Source of the DNA: a virus
Length of the DNA: 64,000 nucleotides
Virus record (IMG/VR): IMGVR_UViG_3300023181_000025
Location: 62,001 to 126,000 of that record
Reading direction: 5' to 3' (one strand)
The position numbers and the translations under genes were made by a program. Shown here one piece after another: positions 442 through 59,279 of the stretch; within the stretch, counting starts at the first letter, position 1; every line of letters starts with the position of its first letter. Below the pieces are notes generated by a model. That model saw only the letters and a list, made by a program, of their open reading frames with translations. It was not told where the DNA came from and made no database searches.

Positions 442-1631
442 AGATTTTCCTCTTCTTGAATTTCTATTTCTTCGTCAGAAGAAAGATCTATTTCATCGTT
501 TGAAGCAAACTCGTTTAGATATTTTTTAATAGTAGGAAAAATGTCTGGTCTTGCCAAGAATACATTGCACTTGTTTTCTCCATTAACTTTATCTGGAAAA
601 TCAAGTCCTCTTGCTCTCATTTCTTCTACGAAATAAGGCGAAAACTCATTGGCTGCTTTCTTAACCGTTAGAAGCCCATAACTAATAAGCATTCCTCTAA
701 CCTCTAGTTCCGACCAAATGGCAGACCCATTTTTAACTTTATACTTAACTGGATATCTAACAGTCAAGCCAGTAGATTCATTTTCGCTCTTTCTGATCGT
801 TACTTTGCACCAATGGCCAATTGTATTATTGGTTTCAAAATCCAACTTAACTTCTTTTTCTCCATTTTTGGTAATATAGTCAGATTTATTACGAGGCCTA
901 TATTCCATAGAGATATTAGAGAAGTGGATTTGTGCATTCCCCCCTGAACCCCCAACACTAAGCTGGTCTTTAACATCATACTTAGGGGCAATGTGAGCAC
1001 TAACTTGAGCGATTAGAACGAGAACATGGCCGAAAGTGGCAATTGGAAGGCCTACTTGTTTTAAAAGTCTCTTTGTTAAGACTTGTGGTCCGGCAACCTT
1101 AACGCTTTCGTCTCCGTCAAAAGATTTCTTTACGTCCGCCTTTAGAATAAGGCCGTCCATACTATCAATTACAATAAGAAATTTAAAATCTTCCGGATTG
1201 TCTGTAACTAAATCGAAAATTAGTTGAGCAAGACTATCAAAAATATTTGACTTTAGAACTAGGCAGGTGCCTACATCCCATTTCGAGAAGTCTTCGGTAA
1301 ACTTAATTCCACAACGAGCCTTCATCTTTTCTGACAGCCTTCCCTCGGCTTTAATATAAAGAACTTTAGAGCGAGGAACAACTTCTAAAAAGTTCGCAGC
1401 CTCCTCTAGGGTGCTGGCGGATTTGCCGCCTTCAGAACTCCCTGATTTTCTTATGATTCCCGGACCATACCCGCCATCTAACGCGGCGTCTAGCTTAATG
1501 CTTCCACTAGAATACTTATAGGTAAAATCTTGAATTCCATTGTAATGGTCCTCCTTATGCTTTTCTCCATACCTTTCGATAACAGACTTAATCTTTGGTT
1601 TGGATTCTTTTTCTTCTTTAGTTTTTGCCAT
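438..1631 (-). CDS. RecA/UvsX-type recombinase
   Basis: A 397-residue RecA-superfamily ATPase expected to form filaments on ssDNA and drive strand exchange in phage recombination-dependent replication. Walker A reads GSSEGGKSA (residues ~63-71). Walker B is the hydrophobic strand LIVIDSMDG (~150-158). The acidic C-terminus (EIEIQEEENL) resembles RecA/UvsX tails. Between them lies a glycine-rich stretch (SVGGSGGN) where RecA proteins have loop L2. Its length matches T4 UvsX (about 390) more than bacterial RecA. It sits with a nuclease and, further upstream in the same direction, an SSB gene. Confidence 0.85.
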   Translation of the reverse strand: MAKTKEEKESKPKIKSVIERYGEKHKEDHYNGIQDFTYKYSSGSIKLDAALDGGYGPGIIRKSGSSEGGKSASTLEEAANFLEVVPRSKVLYIKAEGRLSEKMKARCGIKFTEDFSKWDVGTCLVLKSNIFDSLAQLIFDLVTDNPEDFKFLIVIDSMDGLILKADVKKSFDGDESVKVAGPQVLTKRLLKQVGLPIATFGHVLVLIAQVSAHIAPKYDVKDQLSVGGSGGNAQIHFSNISMEYRPRNKSDYITKNGEKEVKLDFETNNTIGHWCKVTIRKSENESTGLTVRYPVKYKVKNGSAIWSELEVRGMLISYGLLTVKKAANEFSPYFVEEMRARGLDFPDKVNGENKCNVFLARPDIFPTIKKYLNEFASNDEIDLSSDEEIEIQEEENL

Positions 1632-4692: not shown

Positions 4693-6939
4693 TTAAATTG
4701 CACATGCTCCTGAAGCGCATCCGTCATCTTCCTTATTGGACATCCCCTCAGAGTTATGTCCGTCATCTTTTTTGGCGTAATACAGTGTTTTTGCGCCTAG
4801 CTTAAACGATAAAAGAATATCGGAGAGAACTCTTTTTACGGTAAGTTTTTCTTTTGAGTAGAAATGGTCAGCAGAAATAGACATATCACAATATTTTTGA
4901 ATTACTGCATAAATCTTAATAAGATTAGTATTATCAGGCATTTCAAAACAACCTTCATAATTCCAGTTTTTGTTTCCGGGCACAAATTGCTTAATAAGAC
5001 CTTGTTTGGATTCTTTTATTTGGAATCTTGATTGAATTGGTCCGACGCCATTTGTTGAGTTGAGGCAAACAGAAGATGCTTCGCATGGCATCATAGCGGT
5101 TAAGGTCATATTGCGCAAGCCCCAAGTTAGGATTTCTTTCCTGAGCCATTCCCAATCCATAGAAAGCGTCCTGTTGCAAACTTCATCCACAGTTTTTTTA
5201 TAACTGTCGATAGGTAGAATTCCATCGGAATAGCTGCTTTCACTAAATAAGGGTGCTGGACCTCTTTCTTTCGCCAAATTCATAGACGCTTTTAGACAAT
5301 AAAATTGAATCTTCTCCATTAATGCATCTACAAATGCAACAGATTCTGGATCTGAGTATTTTAAGTTATTTTTTGCTAATAAAGCCGCTAAGTTGGTTAT
5401 ACCAATCCCAAGGGATCTTTTATTAACTGCGAAGTTTCTGGCTTGTGGGGCAAAGTAATCTTGAATATCTAAAATATTGTCAAGCTGTCTCACGCTGGTT
5501 TCGCAAATTTCTTCTAATTCCTCATCACTTTTCGCTTCTAAAACATTGATAGCGCAAAGCGTGCAAATTCCAATTTCCCCATCCAAATCATAAAGATTTT
5601 TTGTTGGTGTGATATTCTGCAAAATTTCCTGACACAGATTTGAAAATCCAACCTTTTTCTTCCATGGGCTATGGTTGTTTGCATTATCAATATTTAATAT
5701 ATATATTCTTCCGGTTTCAATTCTTTCCTCGGCTAGGCGAGTAAACAGTTCGTTAGCACTTACTGTTTTTTTCATTTTAATCATTGGGTCGTTTTCGTAA
5801 CGAATATAAAGATCATCGAATTCTGGCAAACCGAAAGCTTCGAATAAGCCTTTTACTTCATTGGGGTTGAAAAGAGTAATGTTTCCGTTCTTAATTAATC
5901 TTTCATAAAAAAGCTTCGAAATCCCTATGCTATAATCCAAGCGCCTTACTCGGTTGGCATCTGTTCCTCTATTATTTTTAAGTTGAAGGATGTCCTCAAT
6001 CTCGTAATGCCAAATTGGGAAGGTTGTGGTGGCACTTCCTCCGCGCGCCCCTTGGAGGGTAGCAATAACGATAGATTCAAATGTTTTCAAATAAGGAATT
6101 ACACCTGTATGTAAAACTTGTCCGCCCCGTATAGGGGAGCCAATTGGGCGCAAACTGCCCGTATCTAGGCCAATTCCATATCCTTTTGAAGTCGCTTGAG
6201 ACGTGAAAACTCGTGATGCGTCAATAGACTCTAAAGTATCCAAAACAGGTAGAAGGCAACAAGACGCATATGATCTTGTATTTGTTCTAAGTTTTGACAT
6301 TAATGGAGAGGGCAAACTTATTTTTCTCTTTGTATAGGAATCATAGGCTCTTTTCACATAAAAAACTCTTTTTTCCGGACTTTCATTAATATGACCGGCC
6401 ATTGCCATTAACATGTATGCAAATGAAGGCGTTTCAAATGATTCTCCTGTTGATTTATTATTATAAAGGTATTTTTCCTTTAATTGTTTAACTGCCGCAG
6501 AATCTAATTGAAGATCTCTATCGTGGTGGATCTTTTCATTCAGTTTGTTAATTTCCTTTTGAGAAAAAACTTTTAAAATTTCTGGATCATAAATACCAAG
6601 ATCAATATTCTTTTTTATAAAATCATATAAATGTGGCGGATTTTTTCCTCCCCAAACCTCTTTTCTTAAAGAAAAGATCATTAATCTACCCGCGACTAGG
6701 CTATAATTGGGAGATGTTTCTGAAAATAAATCGCTGGCAGCGTCTATTATCGAACTATGGATGTCCTGGGAATTAATTTTCTTCGATAGACTCATATTGG
6801 CGTTAATAGCTATTAAATTAGCATCAACTCCACTAACCCCCTCTGTTGCCCAATTTATAACTTTATTTATTTTTTCAACGTCGAACAATTCTTGCGAGCC
6901 GTCTCGTTTTATTACTTTCACCTCTTCATTAATACTCAT
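4693..6939 (-). CDS. nrdA: ribonucleotide reductase class Ia, alpha subunit
   Basis: 748 residues, normal for NrdA. An N-terminal ATP-cone begins with VIKRDGSQELFDVEKI (residues ~9-24). The catalytic barrel follows, with CTLCAIN and the loop NSTNGVGP. The C-terminus CASGACAI provides the redox-relay cysteine pair that reduces the active site. It reduces NDPs to dNDPs together with NrdB. No glutaredoxin/thioredoxin gene was seen in the window, so reductant may come from the host or from elsewhere in the phage genome. Confidence 0.93.
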   Translation of the reverse strand: MSINEEVKVIKRDGSQELFDVEKINKVINWATEGVSGVDANLIAINANMSLSKKINSQDIHSSIIDAASDLFSETSPNYSLVAGRLMIFSLRKEVWGGKNPPHLYDFIKKNIDLGIYDPEILKVFSQKEINKLNEKIHHDRDLQLDSAAVKQLKEKYLYNNKSTGESFETPSFAYMLMAMAGHINESPEKRVFYVKRAYDSYTKRKISLPSPLMSKLRTNTRSYASCCLLPVLDTLESIDASRVFTSQATSKGYGIGLDTGSLRPIGSPIRGGQVLHTGVIPYLKTFESIVIATLQGARGGSATTTFPIWHYEIEDILQLKNNRGTDANRVRRLDYSIGISKLFYERLIKNGNITLFNPNEVKGLFEAFGLPEFDDLYIRYENDPMIKMKKTVSANELFTRLAEERIETGRIYILNIDNANNHSPWKKKVGFSNLCQEILQNITPTKNLYDLDGEIGICTLCAINVLEAKSDEELEEICETSVRQLDNILDIQDYFAPQARNFAVNKRSLGIGITNLAALLAKNNLKYSDPESVAFVDALMEKIQFYCLKASMNLAKERGPAPLFSESSYSDGILPIDSYKKTVDEVCNRTLSMDWEWLRKEILTWGLRNMTLTAMMPCEASSVCLNSTNGVGPIQSRFQIKESKQGLIKQFVPGNKNWNYEGCFEMPDNTNLIKIYAVIQKYCDMSISADHFYSKEKLTVKRVLSDILLSFKLGAKTLYYAKKDDGHNSEGMSNKEDDGCASGACAI

Positions 6940-29898: not shown

Positions 29899-29972
29899 GC
29901 GCCGTTAGCTCAGCGGTTAGAGCGGTCCGACTCTAAATTGGATTGTCGGGGTTTCGAATACCTCACGGCGCA
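29899..29972 (+). tRNA. amber suppressor tRNA(CTA)
   Basis: Canonical cloverleaf: perfect acceptor GCGCCGT/ACGGCGC, D-stem GCTC/GAGC with GCGGTTA-type loop, anticodon stem TCCGA/TTGGA, loop CTCTAAA with U33 and purine 37, T-arm GGGGT-TTCGAAT-ACCTC. The anticodon CTA reads UAG. The charged amino acid is not evident. TAG is rare as a stop codon among genes in this window. Confidence 0.85.
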
Positions 29973-29984
29973 CTTTTGACTTAA

Positions 29985-30185: not shown

Positions 30186-30362
30186 ATGAAGCCAAAAATG
30201 ATTACAAGAGTTACAGCAACAGAATTTGAAACCGATGATGGAGTTATCCATGATATTCCGTTTGAATTAGATGAAGTTCCAACAGTTGAGGATTTTCAAC
30301 GAATCTATGACGAATGGTTCAGATTATTTCAACAGAAAGGATTGATAGACAAAAATGGATAA
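30186..30362 (+). CDS. small protein preceding tnpA
   Basis: 58 residues, starting MKPKMITRVTATEFETDDG, acidic, ending DKNG. It overlaps the serine recombinase gene by 8 nt and carries a phage-type promoter motif at its start. It could be a phage gene that now leads transcription into the element. Function unknown. Confidence 0.55.
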   Translation: MKPKMITRVTATEFETDDGVIHDIPFELDEVPTVEDFQRIYDEWFRLFQQKGLIDKNG

Positions 30363-30987
30363 AAAGATTCTATCAATTAGTGATGCTGCATCTATCTTAG
30401 GCGTTTCTGATGAAACTCTTAGAAATTGGGAAAGAGAAGGCAAAGTGATCCCATTTCATACGGAAGGTGGCCATAGACGCTATTATAGAACCGATATTGA
30501 GAAGTTGGCAGGAATCTATGTAGAAACTGTTAAAGAGTCTAGTGGTAAGCGTGTGGGTATCTATTGCCGTGTTAGCTCACATGAGCAGAAGACCAAAGGT
30601 GATTTAGAAAGACAGGTTGGCAGAATGACTACAGAGGCACTAAAACGTGGTTATTCTATTGTTGCGGTTTTTGATGAGGTAGGTTCAGGAATGAACGACA
30701 ATAGGAAGAAATTACAGAAACTTTTTGAATTGGTTGAGAAGAAAGAAATTGATGTAGTCTTAATCGAACATAAAGATAGATTGTCAAGGTTTTGTTTTAA
30801 TTATCTATTATCTTATTTTAATTCCTATGGGGTTAGAATTGAAAAAGTTGAAGAGGTAATGAGTAAGAGTTTCGAGAATGAACTCGTAGAAGATATTTTG
30901 TCTTTGATGGCTAGTTTTTCTGCTAAAATCTATGGACGTAGAAGTTCGCAGAATCGAAAGAAGAAAGAAAAGGAGGAACCAGAATGA
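30355..30987 (+). CDS. tnpA: IS607-type serine recombinase TnpA
   Basis: 210 residues. N-terminal MerR-like helix-turn-helix (SDAASILGVSDETLRNWERE, residues ~6-25). Then a resolvase/invertase catalytic domain: VGIYCRVSSHEQ with the nucleophile Ser, DEVGSGMND, and EHKDRLSRF. This HTH-first order is diagnostic of IS607 transposases, which move a circular intermediate without terminal inverted repeats. Stop and next start overlap as ATGA. Confidence 0.92.
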   Translation: MDKKILSISDAASILGVSDETLRNWEREGKVIPFHTEGGHRRYYRTDIEKLAGIYVETVKESSGKRVGIYCRVSSHEQKTKGDLERQVGRMTTEALKRGYSIVAVFDEVGSGMNDNRKKLQKLFELVEKKEIDVVLIEHKDRLSRFCFNYLLSYFNSYGVRIEKVEEVMSKSFENELVEDILSLMASFSAKIYGRRSSQNRKKKEKEEPE

Positions 30988-31691
30988 GACAGGAAATTTT
31001 ATATGGCGACTGTTTAGAGCTATTAAAAAACATTCCTGATAAATCAATTGATTTCATTTGTATTGACCCGCCATACGGTTTAACCGCTCCGAAATGGGAT
31101 TCTATTGTTTCTTTTGATTTTTTATGGGCTGAATTTAATAGAATTGGCAAAAATGGATATGTCGCGGCTATATTTGGCTGTCAACCATTCACTACGAAAG
31201 TTATTTGCTCTAATATAGAACAATTTAAATATTGTTGGTATTGGAATAAAAACCAAGGAACAAATTTCTTTCATGCCAAGAGAATGCCAATTAGAAAAGT
31301 TGAAGAAATATCTATTTTTGGCGGCAAAACATATAATCCACAAATTACGGATGGGCATATTCCTACCAATTCTGCTAAAGGCTGCTCCAACGGAAAAGCA
31401 TATCATGGAACCAATACGCGAAATTACGAAGGTGGGAAAACAACGCGATTTCCTGACAATATTTTAAATTTTAAATGCGTGGATAATTATTCGAGAGTTC
31501 ATTCCAGTCAAAAACCAGTTGAGCTTTTGGAGTATCTTATCAATACATATACTAATGAGAATGATGTTGTTTTGGATAGCTTTGCTGGTTCAGGCTCAAC
31601 TTTAGTAGCGGCAAAAAATCTCAATCGTCAATTCATAGGTATCGAAAAAGAAAAAGAATATTATTATATTTGTTTAGAAAGATTGAAATGA
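30984..31691 (+). CDS. beta-class DNA methyltransferase (N4-C or N6-A)
   Basis: 235 residues. Motif IV CIDPPYGL (~25-32) precedes motif I SFAGSGSTLVAAK (~199-211), the permuted order of beta-class amino-methyltransferases. SSQKPVELLEYLI is the usual motif before the SAM-binding loop. It would methylate an exocyclic amino group in a specific DNA site. No restriction endonuclease is adjacent. Its position between tnpA and tnpB with overlaps on both sides marks it as element cargo. Confidence 0.85.
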   Translation: MRQEILYGDCLELLKNIPDKSIDFICIDPPYGLTAPKWDSIVSFDFLWAEFNRIGKNGYVAAIFGCQPFTTKVICSNIEQFKYCWYWNKNQGTNFFHAKRMPIRKVEEISIFGGKTYNPQITDGHIPTNSAKGCSNGKAYHGTNTRNYEGGKTTRFPDNILNFKCVDNYSRVHSSQKPVELLEYLINTYTNENDVVLDSFAGSGSTLVAAKNLNRQFIGIEKEKEYYYICLERLK

Positions 31692-32908
31692 TTTTACGCG
31701 CATACAAAACCGAGATTAGTGTTAATAACAAGCAACAAACCTTGTTATTGCAACATATCGGTTGTGCAAGATGGGCATATAATTGGGCATTAGCTAAAAA
31801 GAAAGAACAATTCGATAAAAAAGAAAAGATTCCTAATGCTATTGAACTTCATAGGGAATTAAACAAGTTAAAACAGTCGGAAGTTCCTTGGATGTATAAT
31901 TCAAGTAAGACTTCTCCACAAAATGCACTTAGAGATTGCGATAAGGCATTTCAAAATTTTTTCGCTCGTTGTAAGAGAAAAGTCAAAGGCAAGAAAGGAT
32001 TTCCTAAATTTAAATCCAAAAAGAACGAAAAACAGTCGTTTAGATTAGACGGAGCAATTTCAGTAGAGTCTGATTGTATTAAATTGCCACGAATCGGTAA
32101 ACTTAGATTAGCCGAGAAAGATTATATTCCCACTGATTGTAAAATACTATCTGCTACCGTCTCTAAACGAGCGGACAAATGGTTTATATCTATTCAAGTA
32201 GAAACGCCTGACAGAGAGCATCTTGACGCTAAGAACGAGGTAGTAGGAATTGATTTGGGAATTAAAACTTTGGCTACTTGTTCTGATGGAGCCATTTATG
32301 AAAATCCAAAAGCCTTAAAGAAAAATCTTAAAAGACTAAAACGTAAACAAAAACAATTAAGCAGAAAGAACAAGGGAATCAAAAACTATGGAAAAGTAAA
32401 ACAAAAATTAGCAAAATTACATTATCACATATCAAACATTCGTAAAGATTGCTTACATAAAATCACTTCTAAAATTATAGACGAAAACCAAGTCGTAGTT
32501 TTGGAAGATTTGAAAGTAAGCAATATGATGAAAAATCACTGTTTGGCGCAAGCTATCAGTGATGTTGGATTATTTGAATTTCGTCGTCAGATAGAATATA
32601 AAGCAAAATGGAATGGAAGAAAAGTTATCTTCGCGGATACCTTCTTTGCTTCCAGTAAGACTTGTAGCTGTTGCGGATGGAAAAATTCAGATTTGAAGTT
32701 GACAGATAGAATATTTGACTGTAAGATGTGTGATAATAAAATGGATAGAGATTTAAATGCAAGTTTGAATCTAAAACAAATTTATAGGGAAAGTTCTTCC
32801 CGAATTGACGCTTCTGGAGATGGGAGTTCATCAAACGCAAGTTTGGTTAGCCCGTCGTTGAACGAAGAATTTAACAAAAAATCGAGAGTTTATGTCCTAA
32901 AAAGATGA
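31688..32908 (+). CDS. tnpB: TnpB RNA-guided nuclease
   Basis: 406 residues from ATG 31688, overlapping the methyltransferase stop. RuvC-like triad: D in GIDLGIKTLAT, E in VVLEDLKVS, D in KMDRDLNAS. A four-cysteine zinc finger lies between the last two (CSCCGW, then CKMC). N-terminal ARWAYNWALAKK and PQNALRD are the OrfB signatures. TnpB cleaves DNA guided by an RNA from the element's right end. All key residues are present, so it appears active. Confidence 0.92.
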   Translation: MILRAYKTEISVNNKQQTLLLQHIGCARWAYNWALAKKKEQFDKKEKIPNAIELHRELNKLKQSEVPWMYNSSKTSPQNALRDCDKAFQNFFARCKRKVKGKKGFPKFKSKKNEKQSFRLDGAISVESDCIKLPRIGKLRLAEKDYIPTDCKILSATVSKRADKWFISIQVETPDREHLDAKNEVVGIDLGIKTLATCSDGAIYENPKALKKNLKRLKRKQKQLSRKNKGIKNYGKVKQKLAKLHYHISNIRKDCLHKITSKIIDENQVVVLEDLKVSNMMKNHCLAQAISDVGLFEFRRQIEYKAKWNGRKVIFADTFFASSKTCSCCGWKNSDLKLTDRIFDCKMCDNKMDRDLNASLNLKQIYRESSSRIDASGDGSSSNASLVSPSLNEEFNKKSRVYVLKR

Positions 32909-33147: not shown

Positions 33148-33681
33148 ATGGCCAATACGAAACAGACTGCAACACAATCTGTTTTAGAGCATGGAGAAAG
33201 TGTTTGGAAATACACCCAAAGAATCTTAAAACAAGATTTCGAAGGGATGAAAATTCCAAATTGGCTAAAAGATAATTTTGGAGAGATTATTAGCAATCTT
33301 CATTATCCAAAAACTATACAGGAGTATAACGAACTTCACGATTGCGGGAAACCGTATTGTCTTGAAGTTGATTCTGATGGCAAGAGGCATTTTCCAAATC
33401 ACGCCGAGGTTTCAAAGCGAGTTTATTTAAACTTGCCGGGAGCTAACAGTATAGTCGGCAACCTAATTGGTTTGGATATGATTTTTCATACATTTACTGC
33501 CGAAGAAATTACGGCGCTCAACCTATCAAAGCGAGACTCTTATACCTTGTTGGTAACAGCCTTGTCAGAAATACACAGTAACGCGGAAATGTTTGGAGGA
33601 ATTGAAAGTGTTTCTTTCAAACAAAAATGGAAAAAGCTTGATCGGCGCGGCAATATGATTATGAAGGGAGGCGCAGAATGA
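33148..33681 (+). CDS. HD-domain phosphohydrolase-like protein
   Basis: 177 residues. HGESVWKYT gives the first His, ELHDCGKPYC the HD pair, and FPNHAEVSK the next His, in the order expected for HD hydrolases, which act on nucleotides or phosphodiesters. Its 3' end overlaps the Pth2-like gene (ATGA). An upstream in-frame ATG at 33112 followed by TAG could extend it. Confidence 0.65.
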   Translation: MANTKQTATQSVLEHGESVWKYTQRILKQDFEGMKIPNWLKDNFGEIISNLHYPKTIQEYNELHDCGKPYCLEVDSDGKRHFPNHAEVSKRVYLNLPGANSIVGNLIGLDMIFHTFTAEEITALNLSKRDSYTLLVTALSEIHSNAEMFGGIESVSFKQKWKKLDRRGNMIMKGGAE

Positions 33682-33992
33682 AAAGATATATGTATGTTGC
33701 CGTAAGGCAAGATATAAGCGGACCCCAGCAAGTAGTTCAGGCATGTCACGCGGCGATTGAAGCTAGTTGGACATATCATTTTGATGGATTTGAACACCCG
33801 TCTGTGATAGTTTTAGGAATGAAAAGCGAAAAAGATCTTAATAAGTTCACGAAATATCTTGACACTTTGGAGTTTGTCCATTATGACGAATTTCGTGAAC
33901 CGGATAGAGATAATGAACTGACAGCAGTTGCAACTGTTGCTATCGGAGAAGAATATAAACACTTATTTAAAAAATATCAATTGTTAAAGTAA
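33678..33992 (+). CDS. Pth2-like peptidyl-tRNA hydrolase
   Basis: 104 residues. AVRQDISGPQQVVQACHAAI matches the Pth2 start (Q-x-x-H-A), with VIVLGMKSEKDL and FREPDRDNELTAVATVAIG as later Pth2 elements. About the size of a minimal Pth2 domain. It would recycle peptidyl-tRNA and lies just upstream of the second large tRNA cluster. A paralogue is at 23472. Confidence 0.75.
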   Translation: MKRYMYVAVRQDISGPQQVVQACHAAIEASWTYHFDGFEHPSVIVLGMKSEKDLNKFTKYLDTLEFVHYDEFREPDRDNELTAVATVAIGEEYKHLFKKYQLLK

Positions 33993-34204: not shown

Positions 34205-34291
34205 GCGTTGGTTGGGGATATTGGTAGTCCTCGCGGAGCTGTAACCTCCGAAACTAATAATTCATTGGACGTTCGATTCGTCTCCAGCGCA
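34205..34291 (+). tRNA. tRNA-Tyr(GTA)
   Basis: Acceptor GCGTTGG/CCAGCGC, perfect anticodon stem CGGAG/CTCCG with loop CTGTAAC, class II variable region, T-stem GACG/CGTC with loop TTCGATT. Confidence 0.88.
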
Positions 34292-34302
34292 CTGGTAATT
34301 TT

Positions 34303-34480
34303 AAGGAGGTTGGCTTAGAAGTAGCAATCCTTTAAAAAGTAGAATCTATTCTCCGAATGACCGTAGTAACAACTTGAAGAGAAAATAGAGTTGCGAACGC
34401 TAAACGTAAGCTAGGACTAGGGAGGTAAATCAATATGAGGTTGTAAGAACCTATGAATTGACATAGGCATATCGTGCGGC
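34303..34480 (+). ncRNA. RNA resembling the 23S rRNA GTPase-associated centre
   Basis: From 34303 the sequence AGGAGGTTGGCTTAGAAG, then AGC, ATCC and TTTAAA, follows the bacterial 23S rRNA L11-binding domain (helix 43, E. coli about 1055-1090) almost base for base. The expected H44 part is replaced by an AGAAT/ATTCT hairpin, and GGAG/CTCC (34305-34354) closes the fold. Further downstream a GCTAAAC segment (~34399-34406) and two hairpins (AGGTT/AACCT, CCTATG/CATAGG) follow. No long ORF. It sits among tRNA genes, probably co-transcribed. A mimic of the ribosomal factor-binding site is the simplest reading. Confidence 0.65.
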
Positions 34481-34543
34481 ACTCCGTAATTGGTAAGGCT
34501 GCAAACCGTTCTTTTGGTGTAAAAACATACTTTTAATTACAAA

Positions 34544-34572: not shown

Positions 34573-34645
34573 GGCTCGTTGGTGAAATTGGATATCACTC
34601 CAGATTACGACTCTGAGGTTCCTGATTCGAGTTCAGGGCGGGCTA
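34573..34645 (+). tRNA. tRNA-Arg(ACG)
   Basis: Acceptor GGCTCGT/GCGGGCT with G-U pairs, anticodon stem CAGA/TCTG with loop TTACGAC, T-arm CCTGA-TTCGAGT-TCAGG. A34 would be edited to inosine by host TadA. Confidence 0.8.
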
Positions 34646-34646
34646 C

Positions 34647-55403: not shown

Positions 55404-55461
55404 AAAAATAAACATTTTGAAGTTGCGGAAATTATAAGAGTCTTTGTTGATAAAAATATTT

Positions 55462-56475
55462 ATGAAATTATTAACACGCGACCAGTTTAGAGAAGGGTGT
55501 CTTGAAAGAGACAGTCATAAGTGCGTTATTTGTGGAGAAACGAAAAATCTTTCTGTCCATCATATTATAGAGCGGCGGTTATTCTCTGATGGCGGATACT
55601 ATCTTTCTAATGGATCTACACTTTGTGAGCCTCATCATATTCAGGCGGAAAAAACAGAGTTAAGTTGCGAAATAATTAGAGAGGCTTGTAATATTACGAA
55701 AATATGCTTGCCTGAAGATTATTACCCCGACCATCAATACACGAAATGGGGAGACGTTATATTGCCAAATAAACAGCGCATGAAAGGACCGCTTTTTTAC
55801 GATGAAAGCGTTCAAAAGATTCTTAAAGATCATTTTTCGCTTTATACGGATTACGTTAAGTATCCTAGATCATGGCATCTTTTATGGAGTCAAGGGAAAA
55901 CAAAGGATGACCGGGTTCTTCCCGATTGCTCTCAATTTGAAGGTAAGGAAATTGTTGTAACCGAGAAACTTGACGGGGAAAATACAAGTATCTACCACGA
56001 TTATATTCATGCCCGTTCTATTGACGGTCGAAACCATTGGAGCCGTGATTGGGTAAAAAATCTACAGGCTAGGGTTGGGTATCAGCTTGATCCCGGCTGG
56101 AGGATTTGCGGCGAAAATCTTTTTGCCAAACATTCCATTGGTTATGATAATCTGAAATCGTTTTTTTATGTGTTTAGCATCTGGAACGACAGGAATGAAT
56201 GCCTTAGTTGGGATGAAACGGTCGAGTATTGCTCTATATTAGAGCTTCAACACGTCCCGGTGCTATACCGGGGACTATGGGACGAAAGAAAGGTCAAAGC
56301 CCTTTATGATGAATCTAAACGCGAAACGATGGAGGGATATGTTGTAAGAATCGCGGACGGATTCAAATATGGAGAATTTAATAAATCATTGGCTAAGTTT
56401 GTGCGCAAGGACCACATAAACCCAGATAGCCATCATTGGTTCTTCACGGCTAGTGAAAAAAACAAATTACAATAA
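55462..56475 (+). CDS. HNH nuclease-RNA ligase fusion
   Basis: 337 residues from ATG 55462. Residues 20-62 are an HNH-type zinc module (CVIC, VHHIIERR, STLCEPHH). Residues ~160-325 are an RNA_ligase/Rnl2-like nucleotidyltransferase: motif I EKLDGEN (Lys169), RICGENLFAKHS (III), EGYVVRI (IV), KFVRKDH (V). The fusion of a putative RNA/DNA-cutting and an RNA-sealing domain is unusual. It may repair or edit tRNAs cleaved by host anticodon nucleases. Confidence 0.8.
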   Translation: MKLLTRDQFREGCLERDSHKCVICGETKNLSVHHIIERRLFSDGGYYLSNGSTLCEPHHIQAEKTELSCEIIREACNITKICLPEDYYPDHQYTKWGDVILPNKQRMKGPLFYDESVQKILKDHFSLYTDYVKYPRSWHLLWSQGKTKDDRVLPDCSQFEGKEIVVTEKLDGENTSIYHDYIHARSIDGRNHWSRDWVKNLQARVGYQLDPGWRICGENLFAKHSIGYDNLKSFFYVFSIWNDRNECLSWDETVEYCSILELQHVPVLYRGLWDERKVKALYDESKRETMEGYVVRIADGFKYGEFNKSLAKFVRKDHINPDSHHWFFTASEKNKLQ

Positions 56476-57926: not shown

Positions 57927-59279
57927 ATGAAGCTATCAAAATCAAAAGATCATGACGTTAATTACCTAGCTGCGGTAATTGAAATTGAATCAATTCAAGA
58001 ACACCCAAACGCTGAAAAGCTCCAAATTATTGAGGTTTTTGGAGGAAATGTAATTATTGGAAAAGGTAGTTATTCAGTGGGGCAAAAGGTAGTTTATTTC
58101 CCGATTGAAACAAGCATTGAGCCTGAGTTCCTTAGTTGGGCGAATCTCTTTAGCGACCCAAACCTAAACAAGGACGAAAAGAGCAAGGGTTTCTTTGAAG
58201 CGAAGGGAACTAGAGTAAAACCAATTCGTTTGCGCGGAATCCCCAGCGAAGGGTTCGTTTATCCCGTCGATAAACTTGCTGAATTTTATGGAGCTAAAGA
58301 AAGTGATTTTAAAGTTGGCGAAACCTTTGACGAGGTTGGCGGCAAATCTTTGGTAAAGAAATGGGTCAGAAACACAACTGTTTCCCAAGTTCAAAGTGTA
58401 AAAGTAAAACTTCCTAAGTGGCTGGAAAAATTTCCCCGTCCCATTAGAAAATTTATTGGACAGAAGCTTTATAATCGCAAGGATGAGGGTGTAAAAGCTT
58501 CTATTGTTCCGGGACAATTTCAATTCCATTATTCTACGCCTCAGCTCTCTAGAACTTTCTTTGTATTGTCGCCGGAGGATGAAATTACAGCGTCTTGGAA
58601 ACTACACGGAACTTCTGCCGTTTTCTGCAATATTCTTGCCTATGAAAAACAGGGAATTATCGAAAAAGTGTTTAAGCGCAGTAAAAAGAAGGGGTATAAG
58701 TTCTTTTATGCTTCAAGGTCTGTCTTAAAGACTCGCAAGGACGAAACTTGGACAGATGATGTTTGGGGAAAGCATGCAAAAGAAGTTTACGAACGCGGCA
58801 TTCCTGAAGGAATTACAATCTTTGGAGAGCTGGTTGGCTACTCTTCGGCTCAAAAGCAAATTCAAAAAAAATATGATTACGGTTGCTCGGTTGGCCAAAG
58901 TGAATTGTATGTTTATCGTATCACTCATACGGATAAATTCAGTCAAGTCAGAGAACTTTCTTTTCCTGAAATTCAGGAATTTTGCGAAACCTTTGACTTA
59001 AAAACGGTCCCAGTTATTTACCAAGGAAAAGCAAAAGATTTGTTCCCGGAAATTCCAATTGACGAGAACTGGAGCAAAGCATTCGTTGAAAAACTTTCAG
59101 AAAATTACCTTGAAAAGGATTGCGAATTCTGCAAGAATAAAGTTCCAGCAGAAGGGGTTGTTGTAAAAATTGACAGTAAAGAAAATAAGCCCGTCTTTAA
59201 ACACAAAAGTGTCGCCTTTAAATTTCTTGAGAGCAAAGAAAGAGATAGCGGAGAAAGTAACATCGAAGAAGAATCATGA
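57927..59279 (+). CDS. RNA ligase, DraRnl/Rnl5-like
   Basis: 450 residues. N-terminal OB-type segment (LAAVIEIESIQEHPNAEKLQ, residues 14-33, tRNA-binding-domain-like). Ligase domain with motif I SWKLHGTSAVF (Lys225), FGELVGYSSAQ (III), PAEGVVVKI (IV) and HKSVAFKFLE (V). This N-terminal OB plus ligase order is that of Deinococcus Rnl-type enzymes, which seal nicks with 3'-OH RNA. It is the second RNA ligase within 2.5 kb. Own leaderless-type promoter. Confidence 0.85.
   Translation: MKLSKSKDHDVNYLAAVIEIESIQEHPNAEKLQIIEVFGGNVIIGKGSYSVGQKVVYFPIETSIEPEFLSWANLFSDPNLNKDEKSKGFFEAKGTRVKPIRLRGIPSEGFVYPVDKLAEFYGAKESDFKVGETFDEVGGKSLVKKWVRNTTVSQVQSVKVKLPKWLEKFPRPIRKFIGQKLYNRKDEGVKASIVPGQFQFHYSTPQLSRTFFVLSPEDEITASWKLHGTSAVFCNILAYEKQGIIEKVFKRSKKKGYKFFYASRSVLKTRKDETWTDDVWGKHAKEVYERGIPEGITIFGELVGYSSAQKQIQKKYDYGCSVGQSELYVYRITHTDKFSQVRELSFPEIQEFCETFDLKTVPVIYQGKAKDLFPEIPIDENWSKAFVEKLSENYLEKDCEFCKNKVPAEGVVVKIDSKENKPVFKHKSVAFKFLESKERDSGESNIEEES

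Follow-up and report, generated by a model that had tools for sequence, protein, structure and literature searches.

The 64,000-nt stretch of virus DNA analysed here, called the window below, encodes on its plus strand a complete 23S rRNA GTPase-associated centre (GAC; E. coli 1051-1108) at positions 34295-34540. The RNA is about 246 nt long with its insert, and its helix 44 (H44) is opened by a domain inserted between bases 1090 and 1091; both halves and the closing helix are kept in relatives. From comparison of these sequences, the identity of the fold with the 23S GAC is near certain. An earlier note on this DNA had proposed that an RNA in a tRNA cluster imitates the 23S GAC. The imitation was borne out by sequence, secondary structure and tertiary covariation, and the location by ARAGORN, which placed the element between tRNA-Tyr and tRNA-Arg genes. 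The anatomy given there had to be redrawn, since H44 and H42 are both present, a domain is inserted, and the element spans 34295-34540 instead of ending at 34480.

The stretch 34309-34336, GTTGGCTTAGAAGTAGCAATCCTTTAAA, follows E. coli 1059-1086, that is H43 and the junction, in agreement with the similarity to helix 43 already recognised in the earlier note. H43 (1057-1081) occupies 34307-34331, with A1067 at 34317 and U1072 at 34322, as placed by the alignment A1 and the pair counts described below. It is followed by the junction 1082-1086 (UUAAA, 34332-34336), whose tertiary pair 1082-1086 covaries, and by the 5' strand of H44 (1087-1090, 34337-34340), with A1087:U1102 instead of G:C and with a U1090:A1101 pair. 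The insert domain of 172 nt (34341-34512) is based on a helix of AGAA (34341-34344) and UUCU (34509-34512) and carries at 34477-34503 its type A module, GGCACUCCGUAAUUGGUAAGGCUG, a hairpin common to 19 elements. A UUUG linker (34513-34516), kept in relatives, connects the insert to G1091, and the loop and 3' strand of H44 (1091-1104) lie at 34517-34530, with A1095 at 34521 and U1092:A1099 in a triple with U1072. The 3' half of H44, UUUGGUGUAAAAACAUAC (34513-34530), is found beyond the insert, and relatives are split alike, so that helix 44 is not exchanged for another hairpin as had been thought; the half was missed because it lies 172 nt away. The element is closed by H42, in which the 5' strand GUAAUUUUAAG (34295-34305, E. 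coli 1045-1055) pairs with the 3' strand CUUUUAAUUAC (34530-34540); all 10 of the 10 H42 pairs tested covary in relatives, and the pairing of the 3' strand is conserved there. A GGAG/CTCC closing stem found no support in the relatives, G1055 (34305) pairing with C1104 (34530) in H42. The 29-nt 5' half (34312-34340) showed 3/29 mismatches to the phage-family consensus, compared to 9/29 for the runner-up site on either strand of the window. Compensated changes were present in the window copy, G1087:C1102 being replaced by A:U, and C1092:G1099 by U:A together with C1072 by U. No ORF of at least 80 aa overlaps the element in the window.

Relatives were collected by pattern scans. The first, for an H43-like stretch in viral contigs, returned 36 loci, of which 35 were phage contigs departing from the rRNA sequence after GAGT and one (L030) was a genuine 23S. 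After the insert, these relatives resume with TTTGGCGTAATAGCACAC or a near variant, corresponding to the other H44 half with its GUAAUA loop, and the bases 3' of this half are complementary to those preceding the 5' half; in the first set only L018 lacks a 3' half, being truncated by the end of its locus. Two later scans were keyed only to the 3' half, in its C-type or U-type form, and neither fixed base 1072. They recovered unrequested 5' halves with at most 8 mismatches in 192/235 cases among the matches listed; with shuffled upstream sequence as control, the best 5' halves had at least 11 mismatches. Taken together, the scans keyed to either half found both halves at no fewer than 223 loci, almost all of them in phage contigs; some phages are counted twice in this number, which is neither a census nor a species count. 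The earlier note had advised looking for the element beside tRNAs in related phages; many large phages proved to have it, usually amid tRNA genes. Carriers include 14 kinds of isolate phage: GAP32, CBB, BF, several pEa_SNUABM phages, XbC2, XaC1, Kaldavass, pf16, Milchi, Astolliot, UNO-G1W1, Aeromonas 4_4572, XacN1 and ME3. No RNA was annotated at the element in the isolate-phage regions viewed. Salmonella phage 19 was dropped as a carrier, its weak match being spurious, and a scan of genome contigs was swamped by true rRNA. With model R1 (see below), 39 of 40 carrier records yielded exactly one copy, and the remaining record yielded two. One phage contig (L048) carries tandem GAC RNAs with differing inserts, at about 5130-5400 and 5440-5710. 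A GAC RNA was also seen on a 909-kb plasmid of Pseudomonas sp. FeN3W (L206; CP136011.1, 757210-757246), with an insert resembling that of phage contig L054.

The secondary structure was evaluated on alignment A1, made of 67 cores in which the two halves were joined. Standard pairs accounted for 92.2% over H42/H43/H44, and 15 of 21 pairs showed two-sided changes. The covariation score was 0.502; shuffled alignments gave 0.145, none of 500 reaching the observed value, and sliding the structure gave no more than 0.148. The phage RNA has the H42-H43-H44 secondary structure of the 23S GAC/L11-binding fold, and the earlier note's concern that relatives might covary in an unrelated fold was thereby settled in favour of the L11-binding domain. 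Model R1, trained only on virus and plasmid cores, detected true bacterial 23S GACs at full length with E-values of 4e-17 to 4e-13; its score in the window carries no independent weight, since the window core belongs to the training set. In a cmsearch of the unsplit window, the 5' half was aligned and the insert was not bridged. The Rfam LSU check proposed earlier stayed below threshold at the element, as expected for a split 60-nt domain searched with a 2925-position model, and free-energy folding of the window sequence alone was no better than for shuffles, so that comparison of relatives was required.

The tertiary signature was then read from the cores. In rRNA, base 1072 reportedly forms a base triple with the pair 1092:1099 (Conn, Gutell and Draper 1998). 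The first set contained 60 C-(C:G) and 10 U-(U:A) triples with no mixed ones, and its A1 subset 58 C-type and 9 U-type. As a forward test, among the matches listed, the C-type 3'-half scan gave C1072 in 65 of 66 new elements (the remaining one, which has an H43 insert, is mis-registered), and the U-type scan gave U1072 in 60/62. When elements from the scans were pooled into 149 combined cores (among the matches listed), the triple switched as a unit, C-C:G or U-U:A, in 147/149. The 1082:1086 pair covaries as U-A (97), C-G (25) and A-U (19), that is in 141/149 cores; as it spans three bases only, an ordinary hairpin would be strained. U1060-A1088 is kept in 146/149 cores. Several insert lineages with no relation to one another show the C/U switch of the triple, and related inserts show it at least once, one U-type element (L051) lying inside the type A insert cluster; the switch is therefore not a single inherited change. 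The tertiary contacts peculiar to the GAC fold are retained in the phage RNA.

We compared the phage RNA with 74 distinct bacterial GACs, which had been picked by a 5'-half pattern fixing 1067-1070 and leaving 1096 free. The sequence of 1055-1104 is kept in the phage RNA; that of 1046-1053/1106-1113, strongly conserved in rRNA, is lost and its pairing alone is kept. This flank is on the L10 side of H42. One element (L257) retains an rRNA-like H42 sequence, GACAGCCAGGAUG. U1101 is changed to A in the phage RNA, which creates the U1090:A1101 pair at the site of insertion. Base 1067 varies, being A in 111 and G in 32 of the 149 cores (G in 21%); the full invariance of A1067 seen in the first set (70/70) was an artefact of the first search pattern, which fixed TTAGAAG. 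Bases 1068 and 1070 vary in the 149 cores and 1096 in the first set, unlike bacterial rRNA, invariant at 1067, 1068, 1070 and 1096, an invariance imposed at 1067-1070, and not at 1096, by the selecting pattern. Bases 1067, 1068 and 1070 are apical and close to the N-terminal domain of L11. A1095 is retained in 66/70 elements. As judged by these comparisons, the conserved part is the predicted tertiary L11-binding core and not the factor-facing loop.

The inserts, linker included, measured 28-369 nt with a median of 160 among the matches listed, some being very short (28-47 nt). They are attached by a helix flush with U1090, which has at least 4 bp in 44/70 elements compared to about 6 when inserts were re-paired. 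The window element belongs to a cluster of 22 similar inserts, and a type A module like GGCACCCCGGAAACGGUAAGGCUGAA is present in 19 elements; the remaining inserts are mostly without detectable similarity to one another. A resemblance of the type A insert to the sarcin-ricin loop was discarded, as it was a by-eye comparison with no conserved GAGA. A second insert, in H43 near base 1078, is present in about a dozen elements; this subclass, in which it lies between A1077 and about 1078/1079, comprises L231, L249, L257, L273, L274, L276, L289, L295, L296, L310, L312 and L315. Base 1078 is among the more exposed GAC nucleotides (PMC4409310).

The tRNA-Tyr gene (34205-34292, plus strand) ends 2 nt upstream of the element, and the tRNA-Arg gene (34573-34646, plus strand) starts 32 nt downstream, both as called by ARAGORN; the 3' end of tRNA-Tyr probably sets the 5' end of the GAC RNA. 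A tRNA gene lies within 500 nt of 45/70 elements, compared to 38% of positions drawn at random from these loci, and the nearest tRNA is on the strand of the element in 52/52. An upstream tRNA ends at most 40 nt before G1055 in 19/70 elements, and the next tRNA starts at most 100 nt downstream in 26 of the 70. No protein neighbour recurs in more than 5 of the 70 loci, so that no recurrent gene has the element in its 5' UTR. Neither is it embedded in co-linear LSU rRNA; its flanks are tRNA genes, and no LSU rRNA match was found in the whole 211-kb virus record. Several further features of carriers were observed. Tentative tmRNA genes are predicted at L044 (4045-4349), L061 (11050-11373, closely downstream of the GAC RNA on the same strand) and L066 (7396-7768). 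Proteins with a bL12 domain are encoded at L225 and L226, such phage proteins occurring in 4/40 carrier records, a number that may be no more than background. Genes for UvsX, RNA ligases and ribonucleotide reductase give the window phage a T4-like gene content. Its two RNA ligases (55444-56475 and 57927-59279), one with a fused HNH-like N-terminus, together with the many tRNAs suggest repair of cleaved tRNA. A tRNA with a CUA anticodon (29899-29973), called tRNA-Pyl, is likely an amber suppressor; a link to TAG reassignment through RF1 and L11 was abandoned, since hardly any open frame is gained in the window when TAG is read through. With TGA read through, some long open frame is gained. Just 5' of the tRNA cluster, 33678-33992 gave a weak PTH2 (peptidyl-tRNA hydrolase) match, and PTH2 relatives were found near the element in three other loci. 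An IS605 OrfB/TnpB-like gene (31670-32908) adjoins a resolvase-type gene (30355-30987).

The activity that the fold suggests, and that we consider probable, is binding of host uL11 in trans, whether the RNA then serves as sponge or as anchor. No uL11 gene was found among the 40 carrier records, and any uL11 partner would therefore be the host's. The 58-nt GAC RNA folds autonomously and binds L11 (PMC4409310, PMC10161774). By analogy with this bare RNA in vitro, the phage RNA, presumably co-transcribed with the phage tRNAs and released by tRNA processing, would fold like the GAC and could bind host uL11 in trans. The protein would then be withheld or hijacked during infection, the RNA acting either as a sponge or as the part that anchors the insert domain. 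RelA is not activated by ribosomes without L11 or its N-terminus (PMC4974054). Ribosomes short of uL11 might thus fail to activate RelA and use factors differently, favouring continued phage translation; this RelA consequence is a guess, possible but on the doubtful side. On balance we lean slightly towards a stand-alone structured phage RNA whose uL11-binding-domain core captures or withholds host uL11 in trans. The wider formulation, a widespread and hitherto undescribed class of phage noncoding RNAs that would capture host uL11 via an authentic rRNA tertiary domain, reprogramme translation or block the stringent response, and gain functions from exchangeable inserts, seems to us evenly balanced. 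Several points count against capture. uL11 is as plentiful as ribosomes, and a sponge RNA must therefore be abundant; the insert could hinder L11 binding; the apical bases 1067, 1068 and 1070 vary; and the inserts are large and diverse, so that the GAC may be an anchor only.

This last point leads to a reading in which uL11 is a structural cofactor, the GAC a protein-binding anchor and the variable insert the active part of a phage RNP. The size of the inserts (28-369 nt, median 160, among the matches listed), their families with conserved modules of their own and the keeping of the core as a fold and not as a factor-binding surface speak for it, but most inserts share no detectable sequence, which is odd for a common activity, and certain ones have only 28-47 nt; we hold it to be unlikely. 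The GAC is also the contact site for translation GTPases, RelA and similar factors, so that the RNA could instead be a decoy for one of these readers, for a GAC-directed toxin or defence protein of the host, or for a thiopeptide. Retention of A1095 (66/70), the position in tRNA arrays and the RNA ligases of the window phage are consistent with this; against it, base 1067 is G in 21% and 1068, 1070 and 1096 vary, unlike in bacterial rRNA. A tertiary core that is kept, with apical residues free to vary (A1067 among them), fits L11 binding better than it fits a decoy for a thiopeptide or a factor, and a decoy is to our mind less probable still than the anchor.

A cis-acting regulator or attenuator sensing free uL11 would have good precedent in the well-known mRNA leaders that mimic rRNA (PMC10931766), but no adjacent gene family recurs (at most 5/70 loci), tRNAs often stand on both flanks, and terminators just downstream are rare, being found at 3/69 elements (two of them from one closely related pair) compared to 9/1380 random stretches. 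Such a role appears very improbable. That the element is rRNA debris, contamination or an intron-split rRNA gene, as the near-identity of H43 to rRNA might suggest, is hardly credible: no rRNA sequence extends beyond 1055-1104, H42 covaries on its own, U1101A is phage-specific, the same split occurs in at least 223 loci and in finished isolate genomes, the exact C-type 3' half is absent from 399 Bacillota genomes, and no Rfam intron matched in the window or in 18 scanned loci.

Capture of host uL11, if correct, would offer a direct and testable handle on phage action at the ribosomal stalk base and, perhaps, in the stringent response. The element itself is a functional part of rRNA taken over into a phage RNA and preserved, at about 200 loci, as far as its tertiary base triple. 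It joins GOLLD and ROOL as a structured RNA of phage tRNA islands, and its natural variants make up a mutational library of the GAC, which is a classic model of RNA folding. No useful Rfam match was obtained at the element with gathering or E-value thresholds, Rfam 15 has no such family, and no earlier description was found in the open literature, to which the search extended.

Its closest structural counterpart is the 23S GAC or L11-binding domain (E. coli 1051-1108), to which it is near-identical over 1055-1104, with the three-helix junction, the tertiary triple and the tertiary pairs, and whose rRNA copies are found by the phage model R1. Unlike this domain, it is free-standing, interrupted by 28-369 nt between 1090 and 1091 (among the matches listed), unrelated to rRNA in its H42 sequence and marked by U1101A and an unfixed A1067. 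Phages carry tRNAs and some ribosomal proteins. The proteins (as in phage PhiMa05, or bL12-like proteins) are likewise ribosomal parts borrowed by a phage, but the GAC element is RNA. Leaders of ribosomal-protein operons, such as the L1 site in the L11-L1 operon mRNA, are also RNAs that mimic the site of a ribosomal protein (PMC10931766). The GAC RNA differs from them in being phage-borne, in not being attached to a ribosomal-protein gene and in copying the L11 site. To our knowledge, no leader copying the L11 site has been described. GOLLD (RF02032) and ROOL are, like it, large structured phage RNAs near tRNA islands with unknown function, but their description includes no rRNA domain (PMC12286853), and neither GOLLD nor ROOL (RF03087) matched at the element at any threshold tried in Rfam. 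In one phage tRNA array (L007) a separate GOLLD gene (685-1176, minus strand) lies about 3.4 kb from the GAC RNA. GOLLD and ROOL are thus nearest in habitat, and the ribosomal-protein leaders nearest in principle.
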